A stretch of DNA of 33,292 nucleotides from assembly GCF_000337195.1 (NCBI RefSeq), contig NZ_AOID01000030.1, positions 67,305 through 100,596 of the forward strand, in the 5' to 3' direction. How positions within the stretch are numbered: position 1 is the stretch's first letter; every line of letters starts with the position of its first letter. Shown piece after piece: positions 6,931 to 33,292 of this stretch. The position numbers and the translations under genes are program-made. Origin of the DNA: Natrinema versiforme JCM 10478 (GTDB lineage Archaea; Halobacteriota; Halobacteria; Halobacteriales; Natrialbaceae). The notes under the pieces are model-generated. The model was not told the DNA's origin, made no database searches, and saw only the letters and a program-made list of their open reading frames with translations.

Positions 6931-7079
6931 GAAAGCTTATTACTAAATCCTTAATACCAATGAAACACCCCTACCCGGTGCGAGTCCCCAAGCCGGGATC
7001 GATGCGGTATCGGCAATAACTCGCACTCCAGGTGAATCACTCGCTAACCAACCGAAATACAACGATAATACAACACTAA
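6931..7079 (+). promoter_or_regulatory. Probable S-layer gene promoter and long 5' leader
   Basis: GAAAGC followed by TTATTA (6931-6942) resembles a BRE/TATA pair and would start the transcript near 6965, leaving a leader of about 115 nt. A leader of about 110 nt is known for the Halobacterium S-layer gene. The leader can fold a CCCGG (6974-6978)/CCGGG (6993-6997) hairpin and contains a 19-codon ORF (6960-7019). Other AT-rich TATA candidates lie upstream (6885-6900), so the start is uncertain. Confidence 0.35.
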
Positions 7080-9647
7080 ATGACAGACGACACAACCTAC
7101 CGCGAAAAGGGACGTGCAGTAGTCCTGGCCGCGCTTATGGTGCTGTCCGTTGTTGCCATGTCCGCAGCGTTTGCGGGCGGTGCAGCAGCGGCATATAATG
7201 GCGGAGATTCCGATGTTAACACAGAATACAGCGCAGACGACTTGGATGGCAAACTTGTCTGGCAAGGACAAGTCCTAGGCGTTGGCGACCTTGGTAGCGA
7301 CAACGAGATTACACTGAAAGAAGACCAAGGTGACGACGGCAACCGAACCGTCGAACAGTTGAGCAGTGACGACGATGGTAACGTCGAAATCGACACTTCG
7401 CCCCTCGAGGCTGGGAACTACTTCCTCGAAGGAGGGGATGCAACCCCTAGCAACCAGTTCGAAATCGTTGTTCAGTCGTTCAGTGCGACTGACTTCGAAG
7501 ACGATACGGTTGATGACGACGAAACTGTCGACTTCGAATTCAACTCCAATCGCGGTACGTACGCCGTGAACGTTACCGCCGATGGCCTCGAAGATGAAGA
7601 TCTCGACTCGATCTTCAACACGTCGACAGACAATAATGACTTCGACGTCACCGATTACGACAACAGTAATGACAGTGACGACGAGGTCATTAAGATCTCT
7701 GGTATCAGTGACGCGGACGACTACACAGCGAACTTTACCGACATCGACACCGGTGAGTACACGTTCGACTTCGAGTCGAACGACACGTCCGCCACATCGA
7801 ACGACACGATCACTGTGACCGAGGGCGAAGACGGCAGCCTCTCGTTCGGTGACGAAGTCATTGAAACGCGCACGAACACGGCCGAGATCCCGGTCGAACT
7901 TGAGGAGACCGACCAAGGTTACCTCCGTGTCGGTACGATGGAGGACGCTGGCTACGAAGTCTACCTCCTTGTCGAGGACGATGACAACAACGAAGGCGAG
8001 ACCGGCGAGGTCGTCGTCGAGATGGACACTATCGCGGCAGCTAACAACACTTCGAGTGTTGAGGATGCCTTCTCGCCAGCTGACAGCGACGACTCTGTCA
8101 GCCTCGAAGTCGTCCACAACGAAAGTGCAAACGAGCATCTCGGCTCTGGCGACTACCCGCTGTCGCTCTCGACAGATATTAACGAAACGCTCACCGACGC
8201 GAACGATGCGACGGACTTCTCTGAGGATGATCTCGAGGCCTTCGACGATAGCGAAGAAGACACCTCGTACATGACTCTCGAGAACCGTCAGACTCTCGCT
8301 GAGGACGCTGTCACGGCGCACACTGCGCCGCAGGGCAACCTCAACGACATCACTGACGAACTTGACGACGACGAGACCCTCAACGACCTAATCGAAGAGG
8401 AGAACATCACGGCTACCGACACGGTTGCCGACGGTGATGGTATGCTCGTCAGTCTCGAGACTGAGGGACTCCACAGCTACTTCGAAGAGGGAGACACCTT
8501 CGAAGACATTAACAGCGCTGCCAACTCCAATGGTCAGGACTTCAACCTCACCATCGAGGGCGAGGACAGCGGCCCGAACGCTGACCCGCCAGTCTGGACC
8601 ACGAGTGACACCGTTGGTAGTGATGAGACCGCTACGATCAATGACTCTGTAGAGGTCGTCGCTGCGAACCAGTCGGAGGGCACCGTGCTCTTCAACGTTG
8701 ATTACAGCGGATTCGGATCCGAATTCGAAACTGGTGACTCCTACGACACCACCTTCAACGTCAACTACGACTGGGAGTACGCAAGCGAAGAAGCTGAGGA
8801 CAACGAAGAGAACGAGGAAGCCGTTGACTCGTTCGACCTCGAACAGCGTGAATTCGAGCTCGACGACAGCAACGAAGAGCTGCCCGCCTCCGCAACGGCA
8901 ACTGTGACCGGCGAGACCAACGTCGCACCCGGCACGGAAGTTAGCGACCGCCTGCGCTCGGCTGGTAACTTCACGCAGTCTAACGATGCCTACGTCGCTG
9001 ACGACGGGACCTTCGAAATCGGTCACGACCTCAGCGAGTACGAGGCAGGTATCGATTATACCCTCGAGGCCGACGAAGAGGGTGGCACGGAAGATGACCT
9101 CGAAGGCACCACCATCCCTGGTGACGCGCTCCAGTCCTTCGACTACGACGTCTCCACCGACCCCGCAGAGCCGACGGTCGGTGACACTGTCACCGGTACG
9201 GTTTCCGTTGACAACCCCAACGACGCTCAGAAGTCCGAGGACGTCGAGTTCGTCTTCGACGGTGAGACGCTCTACAACGACACTGTCGACCTCGACAGTG
9301 GCGCAAGCGACACGATCGTCGACGGCGCAACCCTCCTCGAGACCGCTGAGAAAGGCGACTACGAGTGGGAACTGATCGTTGACGGCGAAACCGAAGACTC
9401 CGGCACGGTGACTGTCGCCGAAGACGACAGTGGCTCGGATGACAGTGGCTCGGACGACTCCGGTTCGGACGACTCCGGTTCGGACGACTCCGGCTCGGAC
9501 GACTCCGGTTCGGACGACTCCGGTTCGGACGACTCCGGTTCGGACGACTCCGGTAGCTCCGACGACGGCACGCCCGGCTTCGGTGTCGGCGTCGCCCTCG
9601 TCGCGCTGCTCGGCGCTGCCATGCTGGCACTCCGCCGCCAGAACTAA
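7080..9647 (+). CDS. S-layer surface glycoprotein with PGF-CTERM anchor
   Basis: An 855-residue, very acidic secreted protein. Residues about 8-38 are the haloarchaeal surface-glycoprotein signal peptide (REKGRAVVLAALMVLSVVA, cleavage near AAAA). A beta-rich body follows, with about fifteen N-x-S/T sequons for N-glycosylation. Then comes a DSG spacer (about 783-828) and a PGF-CTERM tail (PGFGVGVALVALLGAAM, then RRQN), the signal for archaeosortase A cleavage and lipid attachment. It should form the cell-wall lattice. Codon use differs from neighbours, with more GAA and AAC, which fits very high expression. A hairpin plus T-rich stretch follows the stop. The glycan genes at the right of the window may serve this protein. 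Confidence 0.88.
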   Translation: MTDDTTYREKGRAVVLAALMVLSVVAMSAAFAGGAAAAYNGGDSDVNTEYSADDLDGKLVWQGQVLGVGDLGSDNEITLKEDQGDDGNRTVEQLSSDDDGNVEIDTSPLEAGNYFLEGGDATPSNQFEIVVQSFSATDFEDDTVDDDETVDFEFNSNRGTYAVNVTADGLEDEDLDSIFNTSTDNNDFDVTDYDNSNDSDDEVIKISGISDADDYTANFTDIDTGEYTFDFESNDTSATSNDTITVTEGEDGSLSFGDEVIETRTNTAEIPVELEETDQGYLRVGTMEDAGYEVYLLVEDDDNNEGETGEVVVEMDTIAAANNTSSVEDAFSPADSDDSVSLEVVHNESANEHLGSGDYPLSLSTDINETLTDANDATDFSEDDLEAFDDSEEDTSYMTLENRQTLAEDAVTAHTAPQGNLNDITDELDDDETLNDLIEEENITATDTVADGDGMLVSLETEGLHSYFEEGDTFEDINSAANSNGQDFNLTIEGEDSGPNADPPVWTTSDTVGSDETATINDSVEVVAANQSEGTVLFNVDYSGFGSEFETGDSYDTTFNVNYDWEYASEEAEDNEENEEAVDSFDLEQREFELDDSNEELPASATATVTGETNVAPGTEVSDRLRSAGNFTQSNDAYVADDGTFEIGHDLSEYEAGIDYTLEADEEGGTEDDLEGTTIPGDALQSFDYDVSTDPAEPTVGDTVTGTVSVDNPNDAQKSEDVEFVFDGETLYNDTVDLDSGASDTIVDGATLLETAEKGDYEWELIVDGETEDSGTVTVAEDDSGSDDSGSDDSGSDDSGSDDSGSDDSGSDDSGSDDSGSDDSGSSDDGTPGFGVGVALVALLGAAMLALRRQN
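9435..9554 (+). repeat. 15-bp tandem repeat, 8 units, coding SDDSG
   Basis: Eight uninterrupted copies of a 15-bp unit code the S-layer spacer. Units 2-8 read tcggacgactccgg followed by T or C and differ only at that last base; unit 1 uses gat and agt codons instead. Near identity at silent positions implies recent slippage or gene conversion. Copy changes keep the frame and alter spacer length between lattice and membrane. Confidence 0.95.
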
Positions 9648-19862: not shown

Positions 19863-20893
19863 GCGGTGAGACGGCGCTCCGGACGCCGCTCTGTGAGGCA
19901 TTCGAGATCGAGTACCCGATCGTACAGGCACCGATCGGGAGCGCGACGACGCCGGAACTCGCGGCCGCCGTCTCGAACGCCGGCGGACTCGGCCACCTCG
20001 CGGTCACGTGGCGCGATCTCGAGGAGACCCGCCGAGTGATCCGCGACACGCGCGAGCGGACCGACGAGCCGTTCGCGGTCAACCTCGTCCTCGACGACGC
20101 GACGACGGTCGTCGACACGGACGAGCACCTCGAGACGATCCTCAAAGCAGGCGTCGATGTCGTCACCCTCTCGTTCGGCGAGGCGGCCCCCTACGTCGAT
20201 CGGATTCACGACGCGGGCGCGGTCGTCGCTCAGACCGTCGGCAGCGCCGAGCAGGCCCGCGCGGCCGTCGACGGCGGCGTCGACGTGATCGTCACGCAGG
20301 GCCTCGAGGCGGGCGGCCACGTCCAGAGCGAGGTGGCGACGACGGCGCTCGTGCCCCGCGTCGCGGACGCGGTGGGCAACGAGGTCCCGATCGTCGCGGC
20401 CGGCGGGATCGCAGACGGTCGCGGGATCGCAGCCGTGCTGGCCCTCGGCGCAGATGGCGCGTGGCTTGGCACCCGGTTCGTCGCGACCGAGGAGGCGGCG
20501 GTTCACGACGAGTACCAGCGGCGACTCCGCGAGAGCGACGAGACCCAAACCGAGCACACGATCCTCTTCGACAAGGGCTGGCCCGGAACCCCACACCGCG
20601 TGTTGGAAAACGAGACGCTCGAGCGCTGGGACCGCGAGGGACGGCCACCCGCCGGAGAACGGCCGGGCGAGAACGATGTCATCGCGCGGGCCGACGACGG
20701 TGACGGCAGCGGCGAGCCGATCGAACGCTACGACGAAGCGCTCGCGACGCCGGCCGTCGACGGCGAGATCAAGGAGATGGCGTTGTTCGCCGGCCAGAGC
20801 GTCGGTCTCACCGACGAGGTTCGGCCGGCGGGAGCGTTACTCGAGGACCTCGTCTCGAAAACGCGGACCGCTATTTCGAACGTGCCGAGGTAA
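19859..20893 (+). CDS. Nitronate monooxygenase / FMN-dependent enoyl-reductase-like protein
   Basis: A 344-residue TIM-barrel flavoprotein. YPIVQAPIG (N-terminal strand), VTQGLEAGGHVQSE with the conserved His of nitronate monooxygenases, VAAGGIADGRGIAAVLALGADGAWLGTRF (FMN phosphate site) and EEAAVHDEYQRRL are all present. The family oxidises propionate 3-nitronate and similar toxic nitronates; some homologues are enoyl-ACP reductases, unlikely in an archaeon. The ATG overlaps the moaC stop by 4 bp (ATGA), so it is the third gene of the operon. The physiological substrate in haloarchaea is not established. Confidence 0.85.
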   Translation: MSGETALRTPLCEAFEIEYPIVQAPIGSATTPELAAAVSNAGGLGHLAVTWRDLEETRRVIRDTRERTDEPFAVNLVLDDATTVVDTDEHLETILKAGVDVVTLSFGEAAPYVDRIHDAGAVVAQTVGSAEQARAAVDGGVDVIVTQGLEAGGHVQSEVATTALVPRVADAVGNEVPIVAAGGIADGRGIAAVLALGADGAWLGTRFVATEEAAVHDEYQRRLRESDETQTEHTILFDKGWPGTPHRVLENETLERWDREGRPPAGERPGENDVIARADDGDGSGEPIERYDEALATPAVDGEIKEMALFAGQSVGLTDEVRPAGALLEDLVSKTRTAISNVPR

Positions 20894-21051
20894 GCCTCAC
20901 AGAGCGCAACGCGGTCGGGAACTCGAGTCAGGGAAGCGTCGATTTCTCATAACGGGCCAGCACGTCTGTCCGGACGCCGGTGGGCTCGAGTCAGTGAGAG
21001 ACGAAACCCGAGCCACAACACTGATAGTAGTGCCTTACTGTCACTGTCGAC

Positions 21052-22233
21052 ATGAGTATCCGTTCTGCGGTGGTTCTCGCGGCGGGCGAGGGAGCCCGGC
21101 TGCGGCCGCTGACGAAGCATCGACCGAAGCCGATGCTTCCCGCGGCGACCAAACCCATTCTCGAGCACGTTTTCGACGCGCTCGTCGACGCCGGGATCAC
21201 GGAGATCACCGTCGTCGTCGGCTACGGCCACACCCACGTCCAGTCGCATTTCGGGTCGACGTACCGCGATTCCTCTCTGGAGTACGTCGTCCAGGACAAG
21301 CAACTCGGTAGCGGCCACGCGCTGCTGGCGGCCGAATCCGCGGTTTCGGAGCCGCGGCTCGTCCTCAACGGTGACCAACTCGTCGCCGGACAGATCGTCG
21401 AGGATGTTCTCGACGCCCACGAGAACGACGACGACGCGCTCGCGACGCTCGGGCTCATTCGGCATGCGGACGTCGGCGAGTACGGCGGCGTGATCTGCGA
21501 GGACGACGGCACCGTCGAGACTATCGTCGAACGGCCCCGTGATGACCGCACTTATAAGCTCAACGCGGGGGTCTACGCGTTCGAGCCGGAACTCTTCGAC
21601 TATCTCCACGGTCCGGAACCGCACCTCAACGAGTACTCGCTCGTCGACGGCATCGCGAACGCGGTCGACGCCGAGGAGACCGTCCGCGGCGTCACCTCCG
21701 ACGGGATCTGGATCGACGCGACGTATCCGTGGGACTTACTCGAGGTCACGGAGACCCTCTTCGAGAGCGCGGACGGCGTCGAGAGTACGGTATCGTCGAC
21801 CGCGCGAGTCCACGAGTCGGCGACGATCGTTGAGCCGACCGTGATTTCGGCGGACTGCGTCGTGGGCCCCGGGGCCGTCGTCGGACCCAACGTCGCGCTC
21901 GGCGAGAACGTGACGGTTGGGGCGAACGCCGTCGTCGAGCACAGCGTCGTCGATGCCGACACGCGCGTCGGGTCGGGGGCGGCGCTCGTCGACTGCGTCA
22001 CCGGCCGCAACGTCCGCGTCGGCACCGGGTCGACTGTCGTCGGCGGGCCCGGAGATGTCCGCGTCGGCGACCGCGTCCACGAGGGCGAGCAACTGGGTGC
22101 GCTGCTCGCGGACCGCGTTCGCGACGACGGCGGCGTGACCTACGCGCCGGGAACGATCGTCGGCTCCGACGCCGTCATCAACGCCGGAACGACCGTTCGC
22201 GGGACGGTCGAAGAGGGGACCGAGGTGCAGTAA
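21052..22233 (+). CDS. glmU: GlmU-like bifunctional sugar-1-phosphate nucleotidyltransferase/acetyltransferase
   Basis: A 393-residue protein. Residues 1-235 are a nucleotidyltransferase (AAGEGARLRPLTKHRPKPML, NGDQLV, and NAGVYAFEPELF). Residues about 245-393 are a left-handed beta-helix of hexapeptide repeats (VVGPGAVVGPNVALGENVTV). It matches the archaeal enzymes making UDP-GlcNAc from glucosamine-1-phosphate, though related members use glucose or mannose phosphates. The glmS gene follows 2 bp later, which supports the amino-sugar role. The gap before it (158 bp) holds a weak TATA-like CTGATAGTAG about 26 bp upstream of the ATG. Confidence 0.85.
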   Translation: MSIRSAVVLAAGEGARLRPLTKHRPKPMLPAATKPILEHVFDALVDAGITEITVVVGYGHTHVQSHFGSTYRDSSLEYVVQDKQLGSGHALLAAESAVSEPRLVLNGDQLVAGQIVEDVLDAHENDDDALATLGLIRHADVGEYGGVICEDDGTVETIVERPRDDRTYKLNAGVYAFEPELFDYLHGPEPHLNEYSLVDGIANAVDAEETVRGVTSDGIWIDATYPWDLLEVTETLFESADGVESTVSSTARVHESATIVEPTVISADCVVGPGAVVGPNVALGENVTVGANAVVEHSVVDADTRVGSGAALVDCVTGRNVRVGTGSTVVGGPGDVRVGDRVHEGEQLGALLADRVRDDGGVTYAPGTIVGSDAVINAGTTVRGTVEEGTEVQ

Positions 22234-22235
22234 CG

Positions 22236-24038
22236 ATGTGCGGAATCGTCGGATACGTCGGGTCTACCGGCGGTGACGACGCCGTCGACGTGGTCCTCGA
22301 TGGCCTCTCGACGCTCGAGTACCGCGGCTACGACTCCGCGGGGCTGGCCGTGCCGACCCCGTCGATGGCGGTCCACAAGGCCGCCGGCGAACTCTCGGCC
22401 CTCGAGGAAACAGTTCCCCGAGACGACCTCGCGGGCGAATCGGTCGGAATCGGACACACGCGCTGGAGCACCCACGGCGCGCCGACGGATGCCAACGCCC
22501 ACCCCCACAGCGACGAGGCGGAGCGCGTCGCCGTCGTCCACAACGGGATCATCGAGAACTACCAGCGACTGCGCGACGACCTCGCCGACGCGGGCGTCGC
22601 GTTCCAGAGTGAGACCGACACCGAAGTGGTCCCGCACCTGATCAGACGCTACCTCGACCGCGGCGCGGACCCCGAAACGGCGTTCCGGTCGGCGATCGAC
22701 CAACTCGAGGGTAGTTACGCGATCGCCGCAGTGTTCGACGGATCGGAGACGGTGTACGCGGCCCGGCAGGACTCCCCGCTCGTCGTCGGCCTCGGCGAGA
22801 CTGGCACGTACCTCGCGAGCGACGTCCCCGCGTTCGTCGACCACACCGACCGCGTCTGTTACCTCGAGGACGGTGACTTCGTCCGACTGACCGCCGACGG
22901 TGCGGTCGTCACCGACGGGGAGGGGGAGACCGTCGACCGACCGATCGAAACGGTCGCGTGGGATCCCGAAGACGCGGAGAAAAGCGGCTACGACCACTAC
23001 ATGCTCAAGGAGATCCACGAGCAGCCGTCCTCGCTCCGCCAGTGTCTCCGCGGCCGGATCGACGAACTCGAGGGGACGGTCAATCTCGAGGAACTGAGCG
23101 ATATCGACCACGACGGGCCGGTCCAGTTCGTCGCCTGTGGCACTTCCTATCACGCGGCGATGTTCGGCGCGGAACGGCTCCGGGCCGGCTGCGTGAGCGC
23201 GCAGGCGTTCCTCGCCAGCGAGTACGCGAGCGATCGCGTTCCCGTCGACGGCGACACGCTCGTCGTCGGCGTCACCCAGAGCGGGGAAACCGCCGACACG
23301 TTGCGCGCCCTGCGCGAGGCCGCCCGGGCCGGGGCGACGACGCTCGCGGTGACCAACACCGTCGCGAGTTCGGCCGCGCGGGAGTGCGACCACGCCCTCT
23401 ATATCCGGGCCGGTCCCGAGATCGGCGTCGCCGCGACGAAGACGTTCGCGAGCCAGCAACTCGCGCTCGCGATGCTGGCGTTCGAACTCGGCGACGATCC
23501 CACGCGCGCCGAACTCGAGGCGCTCCGGGACGTTCCCGGACAGGTCCAGACCGTCCTCGAGACGACCGACGCCAAGGCGGTCGCCGAGGCGTACGTCGAC
23601 GCGGACGCGTACTTCTCCGTCGGACGGGGGTATCACTACCCCGTCGCACTCGAGGGGGCGCTGAAGATGAAGGAGATCACCTACCGGCACGCGGAGGGGT
23701 TCGCGGCCGGCGAACTCAAACACGGCCCGCTCGCACTCGTGACCGAGAACACGCCGGTGTTCGCGATCGTCACCGGTGACGGCGAGACCGCCCGAAAGAC
23801 GATCGGGAACGTCAAACAGATTGCGTCTCGGGATGCGCCCATCGTGGTGGTCACCGACGGCAAATCTAGGGTGACACGTTATGCAGACCACGTCCTCGAG
23901 ATTCCTGCCACCGACGACCTCGGTGGATCGGTGCTCGCGAACGTTCAGCTACAACTGGTAGCCTACTGGATTGCACATGGTTTGGAGCGATCGATCGACA
24001 AGCCGCGGCACTTAGCGAAGAGCGTAACAGTCGAGTGA
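22236..24038 (+). CDS. glmS: Glutamine-fructose-6-phosphate aminotransferase (isomerizing)
   Basis: A 600-residue GlmS. It begins MCGIVGYVG, so Cys2 becomes the N-terminal nucleophile of the glutaminase domain, followed by GHTRWSTHG and HNGIIENY. Two SIS domains follow (VACGTSYHAAMF, VTQSGETADTL, ATKTFASQ and the C-terminal AEGFAAGELKHGPLALV), and the chain ends KPRHLAKSVTVE, the usual GlmS C-terminus. It makes glucosamine-6-phosphate, the first step to UDP-GlcNAc. The start is 2 bp after glmU and certain. The operon continues with uppP 22 bp downstream. Confidence 0.96.
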   Translation: MCGIVGYVGSTGGDDAVDVVLDGLSTLEYRGYDSAGLAVPTPSMAVHKAAGELSALEETVPRDDLAGESVGIGHTRWSTHGAPTDANAHPHSDEAERVAVVHNGIIENYQRLRDDLADAGVAFQSETDTEVVPHLIRRYLDRGADPETAFRSAIDQLEGSYAIAAVFDGSETVYAARQDSPLVVGLGETGTYLASDVPAFVDHTDRVCYLEDGDFVRLTADGAVVTDGEGETVDRPIETVAWDPEDAEKSGYDHYMLKEIHEQPSSLRQCLRGRIDELEGTVNLEELSDIDHDGPVQFVACGTSYHAAMFGAERLRAGCVSAQAFLASEYASDRVPVDGDTLVVGVTQSGETADTLRALREAARAGATTLAVTNTVASSAARECDHALYIRAGPEIGVAATKTFASQQLALAMLAFELGDDPTRAELEALRDVPGQVQTVLETTDAKAVAEAYVDADAYFSVGRGYHYPVALEGALKMKEITYRHAEGFAAGELKHGPLALVTENTPVFAIVTGDGETARKTIGNVKQIASRDAPIVVVTDGKSRVTRYADHVLEIPATDDLGGSVLANVQLQLVAYWIAHGLERSIDKPRHLAKSVTVE

Positions 24039-24060
24039 AATCACTACCGAATTCCCGGCA

Positions 24061-24888
24061 GTGAGTCGAATTGAATTCGTCGTCGCGATACTCGCCGGGA
24101 TCGTCCAAGGAGTCGTCGAGTGGCTCCCCGTCTCGAGTCAGGGCAACCTCTCGCTGTTTCTGACACTCGCCGGGACCGATCCCGCGGTCGCCGTGCAGTT
24201 GGCGCTGTTCCTGCAGGTCGGGACGACGCTCTCGGCGGCGACCTACTACCGCGACGACATCGCGGCGGCCGTCCGCGCGGTGCCCAGTTGGCGGCCTGGC
24301 GATGCGTACCGTGGCGAGAACGCCATCGCGTCGTACGTCGTCGTCGCCACGCTGATGACCGGACTCGTCGGCATTCCGTTATACGTCTATGCGGTCGACC
24401 TCGCCGGCCAGCTCACCGGTGGCGTCTTCATCGCAGTTATCGGCGTCCTGTTGGTTCTTACGGGTGGCCTGCAGCTGGTATCTGAATCGATGTCGATAGG
24501 GATCCGCGACGCACCGACGCTGCTGGATTCGGTGCTGGTCGGGGCCGTCCAGGGCGTCGCGATCCTGCCCGGCATCTCGCGGTCAGGCGTCACGACGAGT
24601 GCACTGCTGTTTCGCAGCTACGACCCACCGACCGCGTTCCGCCTGTCGTTTTTGCTGTCGATCCCCGCAAGCCTGGGGGCGGCCGCGCTCACCGTCGCGG
24701 GAGCCGGCGGCCTCCCGGGAATCGCACTAGGGCCGGCATTGGTGGCGTTGAGTCTCAGCGCTGTCGTTGGCTATTGCACGATCGATGCGCTTATGAAGGC
24801 CGTCGATCGCGTTCCGTTCTGGCTCGTTTGTTTCGGTCTGGGAACGTTCGCGATTGTCGGCGGCGGCATGGTCTCTATACTGGTCTGA
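24061..24888 (+). CDS. uppP: UppP/BacA-family polyprenyl-diphosphate phosphatase homologue
   Basis: A 275-residue membrane protein with about eight helices. Its two signature segments are VQGVVEWLPVSSQGN (15-29; Glu20) and LPGISRSGVTTS (169-180; Arg174). In bacteria UppP frees undecaprenyl phosphate for reuse; in archaea the expected substrate is dolichyl diphosphate, the N-glycan carrier. The usual His after SSxG is Asn29 here. The start is GTG at 24061. Its position after glmU-glmS and before an STT3-like gene supports a role in carrier recycling for glycosylation. Confidence 0.8.
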   Translation: MSRIEFVVAILAGIVQGVVEWLPVSSQGNLSLFLTLAGTDPAVAVQLALFLQVGTTLSAATYYRDDIAAAVRAVPSWRPGDAYRGENAIASYVVVATLMTGLVGIPLYVYAVDLAGQLTGGVFIAVIGVLLVLTGGLQLVSESMSIGIRDAPTLLDSVLVGAVQGVAILPGISRSGVTTSALLFRSYDPPTAFRLSFLLSIPASLGAAALTVAGAGGLPGIALGPALVALSLSAVVGYCTIDALMKAVDRVPFWLVCFGLGTFAIVGGGMVSILV

Positions 24889-25009
24889 GGAGCGACGTGT
24901 GTCCAGAGGCGGGGCGTTCGTAAGACTCGTTAGGTGACCGTTCCGTCGAAGCTAATCCCAAGGCGCTTCCAGAGAACTACCTAGCTTATGACCAACCTGG
25001 GCAAAAGAA

Positions 25010-25018
25010 CTATACAAA
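25010..25018 (+). promoter_or_regulatory. TATA box of the 54-residue zinc-finger gene
   Basis: CTATACAAA, preceded by a GCAAAAGAA BRE-like stretch, is centred 28 bp before ATG 25042. A near-leaderless mRNA is predicted. The rest of the gap from 24889 shows nothing clear. Confidence 0.5.
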
Positions 25019-25041
25019 GATCGTGACTTGATGCTAACGAG

Positions 25042-25206
25042 ATGCAACTGACGGAGAATACGGCTTCTGGACACCCTCTCCTCGAGGCGCTCGAGGGGAA
25101 TGCTTGTTCCTACTGCAAGGGGGGACGACTCGTGCAGGACAGCTACAAGGGGAACGAAGCAGTGATTTGTGACGAATGTGGTACACCGGGCGCACAGGTG
25201 TGGTAA
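25042..25206 (+). CDS. 54-residue zinc-finger protein (HVO_A0556-like)
   Basis: ATG 25042 to TAA 25204-25206 codes 54 residues with two Cys pairs, ACSYCKGGRLVQDSYKG and VICDECGTPGAQVW, forming a compact four-Cys zinc site. The pattern C-x2-C, YKG, C-x2-C-GTPGAQ-W matches a small haloarchaeal family I recall as HVO_A0556-type; the name is from memory. It has its own TATA box and lies 72 bp before the STT3-like gene. Haloarchaeal small zinc fingers are often tied to regulation, so control of the glycosylation genes is possible but unproven. Confidence 0.75.
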   Translation: MQLTENTASGHPLLEALEGNACSYCKGGRLVQDSYKGNEAVICDECGTPGAQVW

Positions 25207-25278
25207 GTCTACAGGCGTGGCCGTTACCGTTCGTTCAGAGCGAAAGCATGATAGCCCTGTCTGCTCTCCTGCAGCACA

Positions 25279-27738
25279 ATGCCTACTGACGGCGATGCGG
25301 GCCGCCTCGCGGACGTGACCGCATCATTTCTCGCGGATCACGATGACGGCGAACAGGCGCTTGAGGCCGTCCTCGCAGTTGACGCTGACCACGAGACGTG
25401 GACCTTCGACGATGTGGACCTGGACTCTGGTACCTTCGGGGAGCTCGTCTCGCGAGGGATCGTCTCAAAGGCCGACGACGCATATCAGGTCGCGGAGCCG
25501 ACGATCGTCGAGGCCGCGCTGACGGGTGAGGAGGTCGAGCCGGAGGCGGGGGCGGACGACGGCGGGCTTGAAATTGACCTCGAGCAGTTTCGGGACACGG
25601 TTGACTTCCGGGCCCTGACGGGGCTGCTGGGGTGCCTACTGGTCGTGGCTGCGGCTCGACTGACGGCCTATGGGTCAGTGTTCCAGCAGGGCTACATCGT
25701 GTCACCAGGAAATGACCCGTACTACTTCCGATACTGGATGGAGGAGTTGTTGGCGGCGAGTGCGGGACCGGCGGACTACGGAGTTCTTATCAATCTTCCA
25801 ACCGAAGGGGCCAGCCGACGGCCGCTCTCGCACGCAACGAACTGGTTCCTCGCCGAGTTGCTTGGCGGTGGCCAAGGCGCGGCCGATACAGTTGCGGCGT
25901 GGCTGCCTATCTTCGCGTCCGTTGCGCTCGCCCTCGTACTCTACGAGCTTACCATCCTGCTGACACGGGATGTCCGAGTTGGGATCACATCGGTTCTCGT
26001 CTTTGCGGTGACGCCGATCCACGCGGTCTATACGGGGCTTGGCTTCCTCGATCACAATGCCCATCAGTATTTCTGGCTCGGAATCACGCTGGTAACGCTC
26101 ACGTGGCTCGCCGTCGACCTGCAGCGACGACTCGAGAGTAGCACCAATCAGGATACAGCCGTTCGAGAACACCTCCGATCACCGACGACATGGAGTATCG
26201 CCGTCCTTTTCGGACTCTCAGTCGTGGCCGGAGTCCATACGTGGGGTGGCTCGCCACTACTGCTGGTTCCACTTGCAGCGTACATCGGATTCCGCGTCGC
26301 ACTCGACGTTCGAGCGGGGCTTTCACCAGTGCGTGCGAATCTGCCACTCCTCGGCGGATTGCTCGTCGGCAGTAGTCTTTCGCTTGTCGTCCACCACCAG
26401 TGGGGGTGGCACGCATCGTTCGTCGCAGTCACACCAATGCTGGTGTTCGGAGGGGGGGCTGCCGTGACCGCGCTTGGGGAACTATGGCAGCGGTTCGACG
26501 TCCGATCTCGAGGACTGATCGCTCTCGAAGCGGTCGTCGCGATCGTCGGACTCGTCGGGTTTCGAATCCTCCGTCCTGCGGCGTGGACCAACGCGGCCGA
26601 ACGGGCGACCGATCTCTTTTTCCGCGGTGGAGCGACTGAGACGGCCTCCCTGTTCGCAATGGAATACGTCGTGATCTTCGGTCCGCTATACCAGCTCGGC
26701 ATGGGGTTCTATGTCGCGTTGGCAGTACTGGGTTGGGTAGCATGGACCGTTACCCGTGAGTACGAACCCGGGTGGCTACTCGTTGGTACCTACGCAGGCT
26801 ATCTCCTCGTGTTGGCAGGTATTCAGGTGCGATTTGCCGGCCAACTCGCGATCCCGCTGGCCGTGCTTACCGGCCTCGGCATCGTCCACCTGCTTTCGGT
26901 CGTCGAACTGGCGCGTACGCCAGTTCCGTTTCAGGGCCGAAATTCTGGTTCAACCGGTGGTTCTCGAGAGAGGGAGATGGTTGCCGCGGACGGTGGCCGG
27001 GGGCTCGAGCCGTCGATTTCGCTACCCGACAAGCGTGCAGTCGGGTACGTGATCGTGATCGGGTTGCTCGTCTTCGGACTAAGCCTCATCTACGTCCCTG
27101 GACTGACGGCGGACGTGACCCACAGCGAGGCACAGGTCGAAGCCGCGGGCGCGATCGACGACCACGCCGCGACGACGGACCGCACGTATCCCGAAACCTA
27201 CGTGCTGAGCGAGTGGGGCGACAACCGGATGTACAACTATCTCGTCAACGGGGAAGCCAATAGTTACAGCTACGCCCGAACCAACTACGATGCGTTTCAG
27301 TCGACGTCCGATCCCGACGGCTGGTACGACCGGTTCGATGGCCGGGTCGGTTACGTCGTCGTGACGGCGACCGACGGGGAACGTCCGGCTAGTAGCGCGC
27401 AGGCCCGCTTGCTCGAGAACTGGGGTGCCGGCGGATCCAATACCGATGCGCTCGCCCACTATCAAGCGGTATACGCCGCCGATGATGTCGCGGCGTTCGC
27501 GGTAGTGCCCGGAGCGACGATCACCATGTCTGGCTACGAAGGCGAGGCTGTAACCCTCAGTACTGACGTGTCCGTATCGGCCGAATCATTCACATACGAA
27601 CGGACGGTGACAGTCAGCGAGAACGGTCAAATTACGGTGACAGTCCCCTATACTGGCGAGTATGTTATCGGAAATGAAACGGTCACTGTCACCCAAGAAG
27701 ACGTACTGAACGGAAACACAGTCAATCACGTGGAATAA
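25279..27738 (+). CDS. STT3/AglB-like GT-C membrane protein with altered catalytic motifs
   Basis: An 819-residue protein. Residues about 1-85 look like a winged-helix segment (DSGTFGELVSRGIVSKADDA). About 12 membrane helices follow (113-610) with STT3-like features: NDPYY (145-149) in the first outer loop and FLDHNAHQYFW (257-267) where STT3/AglB has DHH-x-x-E. The C-terminal globular domain has VLSEWGDNRMYNY (EWGD at 645-648) where oligosaccharyltransferases have WWDYG. STT3 moves lipid-linked glycans to Asn in N-x-S/T. This copy may be an OST paralogue, use another acceptor, or be inactive. It is shorter than Haloferax AglB (about 1,050). Neighbours are sugar and glycan genes. Confidence 0.75.
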   Translation: MPTDGDAGRLADVTASFLADHDDGEQALEAVLAVDADHETWTFDDVDLDSGTFGELVSRGIVSKADDAYQVAEPTIVEAALTGEEVEPEAGADDGGLEIDLEQFRDTVDFRALTGLLGCLLVVAAARLTAYGSVFQQGYIVSPGNDPYYFRYWMEELLAASAGPADYGVLINLPTEGASRRPLSHATNWFLAELLGGGQGAADTVAAWLPIFASVALALVLYELTILLTRDVRVGITSVLVFAVTPIHAVYTGLGFLDHNAHQYFWLGITLVTLTWLAVDLQRRLESSTNQDTAVREHLRSPTTWSIAVLFGLSVVAGVHTWGGSPLLLVPLAAYIGFRVALDVRAGLSPVRANLPLLGGLLVGSSLSLVVHHQWGWHASFVAVTPMLVFGGGAAVTALGELWQRFDVRSRGLIALEAVVAIVGLVGFRILRPAAWTNAAERATDLFFRGGATETASLFAMEYVVIFGPLYQLGMGFYVALAVLGWVAWTVTREYEPGWLLVGTYAGYLLVLAGIQVRFAGQLAIPLAVLTGLGIVHLLSVVELARTPVPFQGRNSGSTGGSREREMVAADGGRGLEPSISLPDKRAVGYVIVIGLLVFGLSLIYVPGLTADVTHSEAQVEAAGAIDDHAATTDRTYPETYVLSEWGDNRMYNYLVNGEANSYSYARTNYDAFQSTSDPDGWYDRFDGRVGYVVVTATDGERPASSAQARLLENWGAGGSNTDALAHYQAVYAADDVAAFAVVPGATITMSGYEGEAVTLSTDVSVSAESFTYERTVTVSENGQITVTVPYTGEYVIGNETVTVTQEDVLNGNTVNHVE

Positions 27739-27792
27739 ACTATTTTATCGGTGACCCCCATCAGCGGTTTCTAGATCAATTTCCGAACCCTC

Positions 27793-27845
27793 ATTTACAT
27801 ATCTAAATAGGTCCTATACATGAATATAAAATACTATATGTAAAT
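27793..27845. repeat. 10-bp perfect inverted repeat in an AT-rich boundary
   Basis: ATTTACATAT (27793-27802) pairs with ATATGTAAAT (27836-27845) around 33 bp of AT-rich DNA. It lies just after the STT3-like gene, where base composition drops sharply. It could be a protein-binding site, a cruciform or the remnant of a mobile element end. Confidence 0.5.
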
Positions 27846-27862
27846 AACGGACACAAAGTCAA

Positions 27863-27878
27863 TTTTTATTATTGTTTT
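27863..27878 (+). terminator. T-rich stretch, possible terminator
   Basis: TTTTTATTATTGTTTT lies about 125 bp after the STT3-like gene. Archaeal RNA polymerase stops at such T-tracts. Confidence 0.35.
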
Positions 27879-27993
27879 CCCACATTCATTGAGTTGGCCT
27901 GTCGTTTTCCTCCCATGATTTTCTCAGAAGAGGGCGACCGATCGGCCATTAAGATTATATTACGTTCGTCAGAACACCTCTGACAGTCAGCAC

Positions 27994-28182
27994 GTGCCAC
28001 GTGAGAAAATGTATGGAAAAAATATGGGTCGTGAGAAATATACGGGGGATAACAGGGGGAAGTCTTGCTCCGTGCTAGAAGGATCGAAGATAGGGTGTGC
28101 TCATGGGGAGATCAGATCATCAGATAATCCTGATTATGCAGTCAGGTGTAAGATCTGCTCTACGCCATATATAACCATATAG
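27994..28182 (+). CDS. Small Cys-rich protein, unknown
   Basis: About 62 residues from GTG 27994 (start uncertain; ATG 28009 and 28024 are alternatives). The C-terminal half has four Cys and one His: KSCSVLEGSKIGCAHGE and VRCKICSTPYITI, a plausible small zinc site. It ends 4 bp before the Dpm1-GtrA start, so the two may be co-translated. Codons are AT-rich, unlike the rest of the window, which suggests transfer or a recently acquired region. I recognise no family. Confidence 0.4.
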   Translation: MPREKMYGKNMGREKYTGDNRGKSCSVLEGSKIGCAHGEIRSSDNPDYAVRCKICSTPYITI

Positions 28183-28186
28183 TTAA

Positions 28187-29398
28187 ATGGCGGAAGAAAA
28201 TATACTGATAGAGCAGACTGATACTGCAGAGCAACAAGTACGCTCCGCAGAGACAATAGCTTATCCGCGGTCCGAATCCGTCGATGAAGTTCTCGCAGAC
28301 AGTAAGAGCGTCACGCTTGTCATCCCGACGTACAATGAACGAGATAACGTCGAACCAATAATCGATCGGTGCCTCACTGCGTTATCGGAGCACGCAGTCG
28401 AGATTGTCATCGTCGACGATGATTCGCCGGACGAAACATGGCGGATCGCACGTGAAGCATACACGAACGACGACCGAGTTCGGGTGATCCGGCGAACCGA
28501 GGAAAGCGGACTCGGAACGGCAGTGTTGCGCGGCTTCTCGGAAGCGTCCTACGAGTTCTGCGCCGTCATCGACGCCGATCTCCAACACCCACCTGAGAAG
28601 CTCCCCGAACTCCTTGACGCGTTCGAGGAGGGGACCGATGTCGTGATCGGCAGCCGTCATATCGATGGCGGTGGCATCGAAGGATGGTCGCGGTTCAGGC
28701 GCGTCGTAAGCGCCGGTGCGACAAGCGCTGCTCGTCTGGGCGTCCCCGAAGCCAGGGGTATCTCAGATCCGATGTCCGGGTTCTTCGCCGTCCGACAGGA
28801 TATTCTCGCCGAGGCCGAACTGAACCCGAAGGGCTATAAGATCCTGCTAGAAGTACTCGCGAAGTGCGATCCTGACGGTGTCGCCGAAGTGCCGTACGTG
28901 TTCACCGAACGCGAACGTGGCGAGTCGAACCTCACCCACGACGAGTACGTGAAGTTTGCCGAGCACGTCGCGATGCTCGGTATGAGTAGTCGTGAACTCG
29001 AGCGGTTCGTCGAACCGGAGCGCGCGACTCGAGCGCTCGAGTTCGGAGCCGTCGGTGGGATCGGCGTCGTCGTGAACACACTCGTGTTCATGGCCGGACG
29101 CGGAATCGGTTCCCACTACCTCCTAGCGGCGACGGCCGCGTTCGTCGCTGCGGTCCACTGGAATTTCCTCGGAAATTGGTTGATCACGTTCGACCAACCA
29201 GAGAATGGACTCCTCGGGAAGTACCTGCGGTTCAATCTAGTGTCTGTCGCCGGGTTCCTGATCTACACGGGGCTGCTCGCGGTAGCCATTCAGGGACTCG
29301 GAACGCCTGATCTGATCGCTAATCTCGCCGCGATTGGCGGAAGTTCGCTGTGGAACTTCCTCGGCGCGGAGAAGTTTGCGTTCCTCCCCAACACCTAG
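28187..29398 (+). CDS. Dolichol-phosphate sugar synthase (Dpm1-like) fused to GtrA
   Basis: A 403-residue protein. After an N-terminal tail of 40 residues comes a GT2 domain: TLVIPTYNERDNVEPII (43-59), IVDDDSPDETW and the metal-binding DAD (129-131) in VIDADLQHPPEKLPE, then VIGSRH. Residues about 280-400 form a GtrA domain of four helices (EFGAVGGIGVVVNTLVF and HWNFLGNWLITF). Dpm1 enzymes charge dolichyl phosphate with mannose or glucose on the cytosolic face; GtrA domains are linked to flipping the lipid-linked sugar. One protein could thus make and move the donor for outer-face GT-C enzymes, such as the one encoded downstream. Confidence 0.9.
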   Translation: MAEENILIEQTDTAEQQVRSAETIAYPRSESVDEVLADSKSVTLVIPTYNERDNVEPIIDRCLTALSEHAVEIVIVDDDSPDETWRIAREAYTNDDRVRVIRRTEESGLGTAVLRGFSEASYEFCAVIDADLQHPPEKLPELLDAFEEGTDVVIGSRHIDGGGIEGWSRFRRVVSAGATSAARLGVPEARGISDPMSGFFAVRQDILAEAELNPKGYKILLEVLAKCDPDGVAEVPYVFTERERGESNLTHDEYVKFAEHVAMLGMSSRELERFVEPERATRALEFGAVGGIGVVVNTLVFMAGRGIGSHYLLAATAAFVAAVHWNFLGNWLITFDQPENGLLGKYLRFNLVSVAGFLIYTGLLAVAIQGLGTPDLIANLAAIGGSSLWNFLGAEKFAFLPNT

Positions 29399-29411
29399 GA
29401 CATAATTATGA

Positions 29412-29850
29412 GTGATCCAGAGCCTGAACTTCCTCTTGCTATCGGTAGTATCGTCTTATCGTATCTGCAGCGGCGCTGATGATTTTTGGTTGACATCGAG
29501 AGGATATGCGTCTCCAATCGGAGGTTCTACAACGTTACTAACTCTGTGGTCGATTTACGGTCTCGTTTTTCCTCTCACGATTGCTGGAGTTCTTAAACTC
29601 AATCTCTCTAAATGGGGTTGACCTCTAGCATACGTCTCGATTGCAGTCATCTTCACAGGGCTTATAATAGCGTTCTTCCTGAATCCGTTTCAGGGTACTC
29701 TCGGTACCGATGCGATGCTGTCCTGCCAATTTTCGGTTGTCCTTCTGTTACAGGGGGAGAATCCGTATGCACACTCGATGGAGCCAGCGTTTGATAAGTA
29801 CTCAATTGAGAGAACACAATTAATAATCGCGTTCAGGTCAGTCCCTGCGA
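29412..29850 (+). pseudogene. Remnant of a GT-C (DUF2029-like) glycosyltransferase
   Basis: One frame reads YASPIGGSTTLLTLWSIYGL and LKLNLSKWG, then a TGA (29619-29621), then goes on in the same frame as YVSIAVIFTGLIIAFFLNPF, GTLGTDAMLSCQFSVVLL and LQGENPYAHSMEPAFDKYSI. The GTDAM...LLQGENPY part aligns with GSDVP...VLEGVNPY of the intact GT-C gene downstream, showing shared ancestry. A short upstream frame (29408, MSDPEPELPLAIGS) probably holds the true start, which would need a frameshift near 29475. Homology stops near 29850, so only the first 150 or so residues remain. It is an inactivated copy. Confidence 0.65.
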
Positions 29851-30049
29851 TGATCTTCAGGCAAAGTGTGATGCTGCCGGAGCGAATGGGACTCTCGAAT
29901 TTGAACCCGGGTCGTATACTGTTTCTGCGGCCGTCACCCCATATGACGGCTAACACTTCGAGATGGTCCAGAAGTTGCTCGCTCGAATCGCTGCACGCAT
30001 GGAAGACTGGGCGCAGTCGACAGATGGTTGTAGAGACGAGCAGTGCTGA
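29810..30049 (+). pseudogene. Broken coding fragment of an unknown protein
   Basis: A second frame is protein-like: NNRVQVSPCDDLQAKC, then NGTLEFEPGSYTVSAAV and TPYDG up to TAA (29951-29953), and on in the same frame as HFEMVQKLLARIAARMEDWA to TGA (30047-30049). It has no start and is joined out of frame to the glycosyltransferase remnant. GTLEFEPGSYTVSAAV resembles an Ig-like surface domain; I do not recognise the rest. This looks like the tail of another gene brought next to the first by a deletion. Confidence 0.4.
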
Positions 30050-30122
30050 ACCGTCCACGATCCATCAACTAATCTAAGTTACAGAGGGCGGCGCAGAAGG
30101 GGATCCTACTTCCAGTGCTTCA

Positions 30123-30136
30123 ATACATTTATGTAT
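30123..30136 (+). promoter_or_regulatory. Palindromic TATA region before the 39-residue membrane peptide
   Basis: ATACATTTATGTAT is a perfect palindrome (arms ATACAT/ATGTAT around TT) containing a TTTATG TATA-like core, centred about 28 bp before ATG 30158. This predicts a leaderless mRNA for the following genes; the symmetry may also bind a regulator. Confidence 0.5.
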
Positions 30137-30157
30137 CGACTGTCGAATTAGCGCAAC

Positions 30158-30277
30158 ATGGAATTCAGTGGTACAGCAACACTTGCACTTGTAGCCACGT
30201 TTCTGTTCCTTTTCGTTCCGACAGCATATCACTACGTTAAAAAGGGGTCCTCATCAGTGGCCTCTCATATTCAATAG
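30158..30277 (+). CDS. 39-residue single-helix membrane peptide
   Basis: ATG 30158 to TAG 30275-30277 codes MEFSGTATLALVATFLFLFV and then PTAYHYVKKGSSSVASHIQ: a short outer end, one hydrophobic helix (about 5-25) and a basic tail (HYVKKG), so the C-terminus should face the cytosol. Only 1 bp separates it from the GT-C gene. A well-placed TATA region precedes it. It could be a small partner subunit or a leader peptide for translation of the next gene. No family is recognised; a truncated signal-peptide remnant is the alternative. Confidence 0.5.
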   Translation: MEFSGTATLALVATFLFLFVPTAYHYVKKGSSSVASHIQ

Positions 30278-30278
30278 A

Positions 30279-31541
30279 ATGACTTCAGATTCAGACCTTC
30301 AACGGTCAATGCGGTATCTAAGGCGGATCGGGGTCGTCATTGCAGTGATGATACTCTTTGGATATTCGATGAGCATCTATCGGCGCTCCCGGATTCACGA
30401 ACACCCCACTATCGCAATTATCGTTCTCGTTCTCTGGGCAGGTGCTCTTATTATCGGCGCACATCTACTCTTTCGCTCAACCCGGCTCCGGTTCGTGGAA
30501 CACAGCTCGGTCGGCTTGCTGTTGGTTTCAACGACCGTCTTCGCATTGGGGACCATATACATAGTGAGCCCGACGCATCTTGGGAGCGATGTTCCACTCT
30601 TCACACGATATGCAGCGATGCAAGTTCTCGAAGGCGTCAACCCGTATCAAATTCCTTTCGACGGAGTTCATGAATTACTGCGCCACAATGAGTACGTCAG
30701 CACGCCAAAACGTGATGGGACACACGTCGTGTCATTGTCGTATCCCGCGTTCTCATTTTTGGCGTATGTACCCGTCGTCTGGATGGGATTAGATGTCCGT
30801 CTTTTGGGTGCAGTCATACTATTCCCGATCGTCGTGCTGCTGATCTACTGGTACGCGCCTGATGAGTGGGGCGTTATTCCAGTTCTCCCCTTGTTCGCTA
30901 ACCAGGGCTTCCTCAATACAGTCGTCGTCGACTACGAGATGTTGTGGGTGCTGCCGTTGATGCTGGCTGCTATGTTCTGGTACCGCGATCTTGACCTGTC
31001 TGCCGTCTGGTTTGGTATCACCTGTGCAGCAAAGCAAAATCCGTGGCTTATCGGGCCGTTCATCGTCCTGCGCTTTGTCTTTGGTGCAGACGATTATCGG
31101 ACAGGGCTCAAACGCTCAATTAGATATGGCGGCATCTCATCAATAGTATTCCTCATTCCGAATGTACCATTTCTCATCTCCAGCCCAGAAGCCTGGTTCC
31201 AAGGCGTTTTCACACCGATTGCTGGCGAAGGAGCGCCACTGATATTTTATGGACAGGGACTCGCGGCCCTTTCTTGGGCAGGATTAGTTCCGATTGCAAA
31301 ATCAGCGTATTCGTACGTCCTCCTTGGTGGACTTGCGTTTGCGGCTATCGCCTACGTCCTCTATCTTGACGAACTGAAAGATGTGATGTGGGTTGTCCCG
31401 ATGCTACTTATGTTCCTGAATTACCGAGGGTCACAGAAATACTATACAATGCTACTCCCAATCGCGATCATCGTAATTATAAGCATGTATAGATACCAAG
31501 GCGATGATGCCGACACGTCCCCGGAGGTGGAGTATGCGTAA
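30279..31541 (+). CDS. GT-C membrane glycosyltransferase (DUF2029/GT87-like)
   Basis: A 420-residue protein with 10-12 predicted helices. The first large outer loop holds THLGSDVPLFTRYAAMQVL and LEGVNPYQIPFDGV; the Asp in GSDVP is where GT-C enzymes keep their catalytic or metal-binding acid, and EG-x-NPY is typical of DUF2029/GT87-like mannosyltransferases. CAAKQNPWLIGPF is another family-like segment. It should move a sugar from a dolichyl-phosphate donor onto a surface glycan, and the Dpm1-GtrA gene upstream could supply that donor. The stop overlaps the next gene by 8 bp. Codons are less GC-rich than in housekeeping genes, which fits island DNA. Confidence 0.75.
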   Translation: MTSDSDLQRSMRYLRRIGVVIAVMILFGYSMSIYRRSRIHEHPTIAIIVLVLWAGALIIGAHLLFRSTRLRFVEHSSVGLLLVSTTVFALGTIYIVSPTHLGSDVPLFTRYAAMQVLEGVNPYQIPFDGVHELLRHNEYVSTPKRDGTHVVSLSYPAFSFLAYVPVVWMGLDVRLLGAVILFPIVVLLIYWYAPDEWGVIPVLPLFANQGFLNTVVVDYEMLWVLPLMLAAMFWYRDLDLSAVWFGITCAAKQNPWLIGPFIVLRFVFGADDYRTGLKRSIRYGGISSIVFLIPNVPFLISSPEAWFQGVFTPIAGEGAPLIFYGQGLAALSWAGLVPIAKSAYSYVLLGGLAFAAIAYVLYLDELKDVMWVVPMLLMFLNYRGSQKYYTMLLPIAIIVIISMYRYQGDDADTSPEVEYA

Positions 31542-32559
31542 GAAGATATCACCGGCCCTTGGTCTTGCGATTGGCTTCACAGTATTCGTCGGCCTCGTCT
31601 TTGGCCTCTCTGTAGTCGATCAAGCGGGGTCGGACTTAGAAATTGACGTCGTTGGTGCAGCTGATCCAAACGGCACTGGACAAGTCACTGAGATCACCGT
31701 CAAAGTGAGAAATACCGGAGACCAGCCAGTTGACCCTGTTTTCTCCGTCATTGGGAAATCAGAGAACAACTACAACTGGGTGTCTAACATATCACGAATA
31801 CCGGCAGGAGAGACGACGAAGGCCACGCTGAACGTGAAGTATATCCAGCAAGGTATTCCACAAGATACCAGCTTCAAAGTCAGAGTGAACGACAGGGAGA
31901 ACACAGCTCGGAAAGCACTCAGCGGGCTCTATCCAAATGCAGTCTGCGAACCAGCAGTCAAAGATAGCTCGTTCGAATACTGGATGTACGATAACGAATT
32001 TGGCGACCAACGGCCAGCCCTGTGGTCACTAAACGTCTGGAGACCAGGGCTTGAACCAAACGGCAGCTTCACGAGTCAGTCAGGACCAAATAACGGTTCT
32101 GCGATGCTGACGGTCGAAGCGCCAAACCGTGAGACAGGGACGTGGACACAGGCCAGCTACGCTCAGTCTATGACGGACGTACCGGACCGCCTCTCTGTTG
32201 AGTTCGCGCCTTATTCAGATTCGACAGTCTGGCGCGACGGGGATCGTGACGGCCTGCCAGCAGAGTTCGTCGGGGTTCGATTCGTTGATCCAACAGAGAA
32301 CAAGCGAATCTGGCTCGGGTACTCTGAGAACGTTGATAAACGCACAACGGTGCATATTGAGGGCGATGTTGAATATGTTATTATACTAACACCAAAGCAG
32401 AAAACAACAATTTCGCCCGCAAGCGTATATCGTGAGCGTGGCTGGGCAGTCAGCGATAGCTACACCCTCAACGCCGGTGTCGCTGCATGGCCACCTATGG
32501 ACAACACATCAGTTATCAGTGGGTTTGAGCAGGTAACAACACACAGCTGTTCGGACTAA
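31534..32559 (+). CDS. Membrane-anchored surface protein with Ig-like domain
   Basis: A 341-residue protein. MRKKIS and a hydrophobic stretch (about 7-28) form a signal anchor. Residues about 33-130 are a CARDB-like beta-sandwich (VRNTGDQPVDPVFSV and RIPAGETTKATLNV). Residues about 140-340 form a beta-rich domain with two Cys near its ends (NAVCEP and HSCSD) that could be a jelly-roll or carbohydrate-binding fold. The start is ATG 31534, fixed by a strong Shine-Dalgarno (GGAGGTG, 31523-31529) 5 bp ahead, inside the previous gene; the 8-bp overlap means coupled translation. It probably sits outside the cell, as an acceptor or binder of the glycan. No enzyme motif is visible. Confidence 0.7.
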   Translation: MRKKISPALGLAIGFTVFVGLVFGLSVVDQAGSDLEIDVVGAADPNGTGQVTEITVKVRNTGDQPVDPVFSVIGKSENNYNWVSNISRIPAGETTKATLNVKYIQQGIPQDTSFKVRVNDRENTARKALSGLYPNAVCEPAVKDSSFEYWMYDNEFGDQRPALWSLNVWRPGLEPNGSFTSQSGPNNGSAMLTVEAPNRETGTWTQASYAQSMTDVPDRLSVEFAPYSDSTVWRDGDRDGLPAEFVGVRFVDPTENKRIWLGYSENVDKRTTVHIEGDVEYVIILTPKQKTTISPASVYRERGWAVSDSYTLNAGVAAWPPMDNTSVISGFEQVTTHSCSD

Positions 32560-32572
32560 GCAGAACTGGTAG

Positions 32573-33204
32573 CCATTTGATATTGAGGAGCGGATTGGAC
32601 GGGTGAATCAGCGCTGCAAGCAGCGTAATTATACATCTTATTGATGTGAGCATGGTGTTATTTACTTATCAAACTACAATGAAGTCCACCACTCGAGAGA
32701 AGATGCGTTGAATCAACACGAGTTTGAGCGGTTGGTTTGAGGCTCTCACCAGATGGACGACTTCTACTCACTACAAACCGGGTTTGTGCTCCACTTTGCT
32801 GGACAGTTGGGGATGCGACAAGGCGAGATCGCCCACCTCGTTGAGCGGTGGGTCGACCTCGATCGGAATATGATCTGCATTCCAGTTCACGAACGCTGCA
32901 TCAAGGGTCGGGAGTCGATGGGAATCTGCGGTTCCTGCCGCCAGCAGGTGAAACAGCGCGTAGAACACAACGACGAGATGACGCTGAGGAACTGGCCTGA
33001 TTCCAAAAACGGAGGATGCCGTTCGTGACATCCCATTCGGCTTCCATCCTCGCGTCTCGCTGATTATCAAGGACTTCTTTGACGAGTACGACGTGTGGCC
33101 AGCGAGCGCCAATGCGGTCAATTGACGGGTCGCGAAGGCAGGGGAACTCTCCGGCCTTGAGTGTAATGCCTACTCCCACACACTTCGCGCGACAGCAGCG
33201 AGTT
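32573..33204 (+). pseudogene. Tyrosine recombinase (integrase) pseudogene
   Basis: A haloarchaeal integrase in decay: PFDIEERIGRVNQRCKQRNY, then TGA (32642-32644); HHSREDALNQHEFERLV, then TGA (32738-32740); FAGQLGMRQGEIAHLVERWV with catalytic Arg I; CIKGRESMGICGSCRQQVKQ. A one-base insertion in the A-run at 33005-33009 then shifts the frame to TEDAVRDIPFGFHPRVSL, TGA (33123-33125), and YSHTLRATAASY, the H-x-x-R box. The gene stops there at an insertion sequence, so the final Tyr is missing from the window. It cannot be functional as read. It marks the right part of the glycan region as former mobile or island DNA. Confidence 0.85.
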
Positions 33205-33205
33205 A

Positions 33206-33292
33206 TAGTATCCGTTAGAATTTTCCGCTCAGAGATTGTTGCTATAGTCAATGGACCATCTCGACGAGATCTCTGTCGAAGAACTCCAAGAC
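33206..33292 (+). mobile_element. Left end of an IS630-like insertion sequence
   Basis: Homology to the integrase stops inside AGTTATAGTA, at a TA dinucleotide, the target of IS630/Tc1 elements. About 45 bp of AT-rich end sequence (TATCCGTTAGAATTTTCC) leads to a transposase start. The right end and the repeats lie outside the window, so the boundary is approximate (33204-33208). Confidence 0.55.
33251..33292 (+). CDS. Transposase N-terminus (IS630 family), cut by the window end
   Basis: The 14 visible residues, MDHLDEISVEELQD, match from memory the opening of haloarchaeal IS630-type transposases, which go on with a helix-turn-helix. The start fits the position just inside an insertion-sequence end. 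With so few residues the assignment is tentative. Confidence 0.5.
   Translation, partial: MDHLDEISVEELQD

Follow-up and report, generated by a model that had tools for sequence, protein, structure and literature searches.

Halobacterium salinarum was the first non-eukaryote in which N-glycosylation was described. In Campylobacter, the pgl genes jointly encode the phosphoglycosyltransferase PglC, the flippase PglK and the STT3-like transferase PglB, which carries the WWDYG motif and recognizes an extended sequon. In A. fulgidus AglB, Asp47, Asp161 and His163 are metal ligands, while Glu360 of the TIXE motif is an indirect ligand (PMC8342417). The S-layer glycoprotein of H. salinarum carries a GalNAc-linked repeating-unit glycan on Asn-2 that comes from a dolichol pyrophosphate carrier and is blocked by bacitracin, and this glycan tolerates replacement of Ser-4 by Val, Leu or Asn; the review that reports this offers no explanation, and lists only one oligosaccharyltransferase (OST) gene in the species (PMC2952790). 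Later work considers the role of AglB for the Asn-2 glycan unclear and points to the apparent existence of a novel oligosaccharyltransferase (PMC6591318; PMC3871713).

The window analyzed here, a stretch of 33,292 nucleotides from Natrinema versiforme JCM 10478, encodes an AglB/STT3-like paralogue on the plus strand (25279..27738), which also carries the other single genes given below with window coordinates. The reading frame is intact from its ATG start and yields 819 amino acids, arranged as a winged helix (residues 1-87), a GT-C membrane part (about 110-613) and a C-terminal globular part. In scans with the single protein, the sole domain to clear its cut-off is AglB_L1, a peripheral domain (PF18079, residues 745-794; 27511..27660). 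The query has no Pfam match to PF02516 and scores 122 bits against TIGR04154, whose cut-off is 450; its H. salinarum orthologue clears PF02516 at 29.4, and AglB_core was detected in neither protein by family scans. Likewise, a PDB sequence search with the single protein gave zero matches and a clade profile was required, which aligned to A. fulgidus AglB(-Long) with its key residues in register (E 1.8e-24). The structure model (pLDDT 86.8, pTM 0.79) finds A. fulgidus AglB as its best Foldseek match (E 1.7e-20), and VIA-align superposes it on 3waj with a Z of 33.8 and an rmsd of 3.8 over 594 aligned residues, the AglB fold spanning residues 105-819. The predicted GT-C/AglB fold, C-terminal part included, is thus well supported by the model, and the STT3-like plan proposed in the original prediction was borne out by an overlay on AglB that gave a GT-C fold rather than some other one. 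Like A. fulgidus AglB-Long (3WAJ/5GMY/7E9S), the paralogue has the full GT-C fold, the C-terminal part and the AglB_L1 domain; unlike AglB, it adds an N-terminal winged helix, is linked to polyprenyl glycosylphosphotransferase (PGT, PF02397) genes and falls under the TIGR04154 cut-off.

Motif conservation, counted across 86 distinct homologues of the paralogue, divides along the two sides of the active site. Asp146 (25714..25716), which lies in an NDPYY outer loop found at residues 145-149 as predicted, aligns to the metal ligand Asp47 in the first DXD motif and is kept in 83 homologues, the other three being gapped there. Glu454 (26638..26640) aligns to Glu360 and is kept in 81, with the Thr-Ile part of TIXE lost so that the motif reads GATE, and Arg518 (26830..26832), the counterpart of Arg426 in the QxRF motif, is also kept in 81. 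Departures at these three positions are mostly gaps, and the residues are near-invariant in complete sequences. The paralogue is probably catalytic, because Asp146, Glu454 and Arg518 match Asp47, Glu360 and Arg426 of AglB. The acceptor side differs: EWGD (residues 645-648; 27211..27222) stands in place of WWDYG, just where the original prediction put it, as part of a clade signature [ST]xWGxNRxYN in which the profile alignment sets S-x-W over the canonical S-W-W. EWGD is nearly invariant among 15 orthologues from the genus, W646, R650 and N653 are conserved across the 86 homologues, and WWDYG occurs in none of them. For the DK/MI motif, the canonical D..K has no visible counterpart in the paralogue, in a region where the alignment is weak. 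As read from these alignments, the pattern is one in which the catalytic and donor side is kept while the acceptor side is rebuilt. By fold and catalytic residues the protein is an STT3 superfamily member and most likely works like one, though we do not claim functional membership among the OSTs, because WWDYG is replaced.

The second DXD motif proved less unusual than first thought. Asp258-His259-Asn260 (26050..26058) aligns to Asp161-His162-His163, and the DHNAHQYFW segment does start at residue 258, but its reading as an altered motif was rejected, since 15 of the 19 canonical haloarchaeal AglBs in our tree are DHN and 4 are DHH, all while WWDYG is kept (L131-L154). Among the paralogues, the deeper branches have DHH and the Natrialbaceae-rich clade has DHQ/DHN and EHR. 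The departures in this region are x-x-Q instead of x-x-E, and EHR in one sister subclade, where it may disturb the metal site.

The paralogue is not the main AglB enzyme of its genome. A canonical AglB with WWDYG, the second copy that the original prediction proposed to look for, is encoded once in the same genome, and none of the three findings named as speaking against a paralogue (a different fold, unconserved motifs, no canonical AglB) was obtained. The paralogue is present in 208 of 392 haloarchaeal genomes sampled, and canonical AglB scores above cut-off in 141 of 146 genomes of the order. Paralogues are monophyletic with respect to AglB, the two forming separate clades with support of 100 on each side. 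In a phylum-wide search, full-length matches to the paralogue are confined to the order, and matches beyond it are partial, weak and similar to AglB homology. Close relatives were not found on viral contigs, and a literature search, with key subscription papers outside its scope, returned no description of the clade.

Gene neighborhoods tie the paralogue to a different kind of glycan assembly. PGT and GlmU-like genes are the commonest neighbors at about 45 named relatives, followed by epimerases, GT4s, sulfatases and flippases. When 60 paralogue loci were compared with 20 canonical-AglB and 20 random loci at a reach of about 10 kb, a PGT gene lay nearby at 33/60, 0/20 and 0/20, respectively (p 3e-10). 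A GlmU-like gene was found at 24/60 paralogue loci against 3/40 controls, and a surface glycoprotein gene at 12/60 against 0/40 (p 0.001), with no S-layer gene detected within 10 kb at the remaining 48. The link extends to whole genomes, as PGT occurs in 197 of 208 genomes with the paralogue and in 51 of 184 without it (odds ratio 47), being unmatched in 11 paralogue genomes. Kinship in these counts was handled by genus collapse and within-genus comparison only: collapsed by genus, PGT is present in 57/60 with the paralogue and 13/35 without, and within the genus of the window, 15 genomes have both and 5 have neither. The paralogue probably belongs to a separate sugar pathway from AglB.

The window itself fits this description, with the gene order glmU-like, glmS, bacA, paralogue, GT2-GtrA. 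The first of these encodes a GlmU-like sugar-1-phosphate nucleotidylyltransferase with hexapeptide repeats, a recurrent neighbor of the paralogue (21052..22233), and is followed by GlmS, a glutamine-fructose-6-phosphate transaminase of amino-sugar supply (22236..24038). Directly upstream of the paralogue is a BacA/UppP-type polyprenyl-diphosphate phosphatase (24061..24888), a gene that is also next to the paralogue on plasmids of Haloplanus and Salinigranum. Downstream is a gene that fuses a GT2 polyprenyl-phosphate glycosyltransferase with a GtrA/DPMS membrane domain (28187..29398). Two further genes are of uncertain membership: a 420-residue membrane protein (30279..31541) that has a GT-C appearance by eye only and zero family matches in Pfam and NCBIfam, and, about 16 kb upstream, an S-layer-like surface glycoprotein with a haloarchaeal signal peptide, a BGTF domain and PGF-CTERM (7080..9647), a possible acceptor. 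The window stops at a contig end, and the one PGT of the genome lies outside it. Across 18000-33292 of the window, G+C drops from about 0.70 to 0.50, which is typical of an exchangeable surface-glycan island. Grouped upstream, at 1620-9647, are an MMPL transporter, a COG1361 S-layer-family protein, a TetR regulator and the surface glycoprotein; the same set, rearranged, adjoins the paralogue on a Salinibaculum plasmid (L164 5103-13099).

We favor, with somewhat better than even confidence, a reading in which the paralogue is a second, dedicated OST-like enzyme beside AglB that serves bacterial-style, PGT-initiated lipid-linked glycans under a different acceptor rule. GlmS and the GlmU-like enzyme would supply an amino-sugar nucleotide, from which a PGT would put sugar-1-phosphate on polyprenyl phosphate to give a pyrophosphate-linked sugar. 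Glycosyltransferases would lengthen this lipid-linked sugar, a flippase would export it, and the paralogue would move the glycan to a surface acceptor outside the cell, after which the BacA/UppP phosphatase would recycle the released polyprenyl pyrophosphate. In catalysis, Asp146 and Asp258, in most cases together with residue 260, would act with the metal; Glu454 would work on the acceptor, and Arg518 close to the leaving group. We infer the polyprenyl-pyrophosphate donor from the PGT and BacA neighbors. With xWGxNRxYN standing where AglB has its Ser/Thr pocket motif WWDYG, a standard N-X-S/T sequon is probably not what the enzyme accepts; at least in Halobacterium, the S-layer glycoprotein would be the likeliest acceptor. 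The earlier suggestions for this gene included a transferase that follows a different acceptor rule, and the predicted AglB fold, the conserved catalytic and donor residues and the clade-wide replacement of WWDYG argue for it. The proposal resembles Campylobacter pgl in its logic, where genes for a flippase and an STT3-like transferase likewise go together with that for a PGT which starts a pyrophosphate-linked glycan, and departs from it in that the haloarchaeal PGT is of the large WbaP-like type and the paralogue is without WWDYG. If true, it would describe an STT3 enzyme with a rebuilt acceptor pocket, which could help to explain and to engineer sequon specificity.

Many paralogue loci resemble exopolysaccharide loci, being rich in GT4, sulfatase, flippase (Wzx) and Wzy_C/O-antigen-ligase-like genes. 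It is conceivable, therefore, that the paralogue completes an exopolysaccharide or lipoglycan pathway as its terminal transferase or ligase, taking a PGT-initiated donor to a lipid or a growing polysaccharide rather than to protein. That the peptide +2 pocket motif is gone would suit such an enzyme, as would the precedent of an H. hispanica DolP-based exopolysaccharide enzyme clustered with aglB (PMC9943897). We regard this as unlikely, though a serious alternative: distinct O-antigen-ligase-like genes are present at some of the same loci, the paralogue retains the AglB C-terminal part and the acceptor-facing Glu of AglB, and S-layer genes lie near it in Halobacterium, Haloplanus and Salinibaculum. 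Improbable to a further degree is an ordinary extra AglB isoform, acting on N-X-S/T sequons through a rearranged pocket and differing only in its donor glycan. The AglB fold and conserved catalytic residues are what such an isoform would have, and WWDYG has been reported to be conformationally plastic, but the motif is replaced throughout the clade, no paralogue carries it and AglB_core goes undetected.

The reading as a second, dedicated enzyme can be set against the H. salinarum S-layer, using a genome (G088) that we take to be H. salinarum because its bacteriorhodopsin is 100% identical to the PDB sequence (92% in the next genome). Within about 14 kb, this genome encodes the S-layer gene csg, the paralogue, glmS, a glmU-like gene, a second nucleotidyltransferase and a PGT; the paralogue is 3.3 kb downstream of csg on the same strand, and the canonical AglB is located away from the cluster. 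Halobacterium sp. CBA1126 (G181) has the same csg-paralogue cluster, and the distance between the two genes is about 20 kb in G174 and about 48 kb in G118. Across the genus, the paralogue occurs in 4 of 13 genomes, all of them among the 5 that have an H. salinarum-type csg.

PGT and amino-sugar genes beside csg, together with an STT3-fold enzyme lacking the +2 pocket motif, would fit each of the facts reported for the Asn-2 glycan: the dolichol-PP carrier, the HexNAc (GalNAc) link, the bacitracin sensitivity and the tolerated loss of Ser-4. Judged from sequence, the paralogue is a good candidate for a missed glycan-attaching enzyme in Halobacterium. That the whole clade is the missing second haloarchaeal OST, which would transfer dolichol-PP glycans to S-layer Asn residues without a +2 Ser/Thr and make the H. 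salinarum Asn-2 repeating-unit glycan, is a plausible but tentative extension. The laboratory strain in which the glycan was studied differs from the genome compared here, in which csg is unlike that of the laboratory strain and the published peptide SDAVNSSGGVKDNIDTSDFNQGVSSTSSIR reads DAVDSEGEMKDNIDTSTFNQGVSSTSSIR; by analogy, the mature S-layer N-terminus is ANAD(QV) in G088 against Asn-Ala-Ser in the laboratory strain. A second STT3-fold enzyme beside the S-layer gene makes the second-glycan question testable in H. salinarum.

In the S-layer protein of G088 (L166 6447-8987), Asn-2 is kept, with Asp at the +2 position where the laboratory strain has Ser. An N-terminal Asn is common to nearby S-layer proteins, as an anecdote rather than a specific feature. 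We also considered the paralogue as the Asn-498 enzyme of Hfx. volcanii, which is likewise without an assigned second enzyme; this is disfavored, since a review gives AglB as the sole Stt3 homologue there and no PGT was found in the Hfx. volcanii control genome.

About 85 winged-helix-like residues had been noted before the membrane part, and in the model this N-terminal segment (residues 1-87; 25279..25539) is predicted to fold as a winged helix. A non-catalytic sensor or partner of AglB, with this domain as its regulatory part, draws on that position and on the EHR variants of one subclade, but is very improbable given the conservation of Asp146, Glu454 and Arg518 and given that the paralogue goes with PGT, while AglB occurs with or without it. 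Few parts of the clade are as well conserved as this domain (LDSGTFGELVS), and the matches that structure searches return for it are all generic winged helices (Z 8.0 at best). A profile of the domain matches exactly two proteins in each of seven genomes: the first is the paralogue, the second a short protein that is the only match in an eighth genome, which lacks the paralogue. In the genome of the window this second protein is an EMC3/TMCO1-like insertase (PF01956; L003 1387-2409), whose N-terminus is homologous to the winged helix by profile-profile comparison (E 3.9e-12). Given STT3 topology, the winged helix would be cytoplasmic, and its sharing with the insertase suggests, speculatively, a ribosome or translocon link or a docking role.

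Some paralogue copies were matched as two overlapping pieces or contain stop codons (G016 C1:1412536-1415052; G006 C1:1786348-1788855; L082), and the gene may be decaying in places. Several others are longer by about 200 residues at the C-terminus (L059, L061, L124, L126, L129; L232 11965-14913), and in one of them the extension is annotated as a LamG-like jellyroll, possibly a glycan-binding module.
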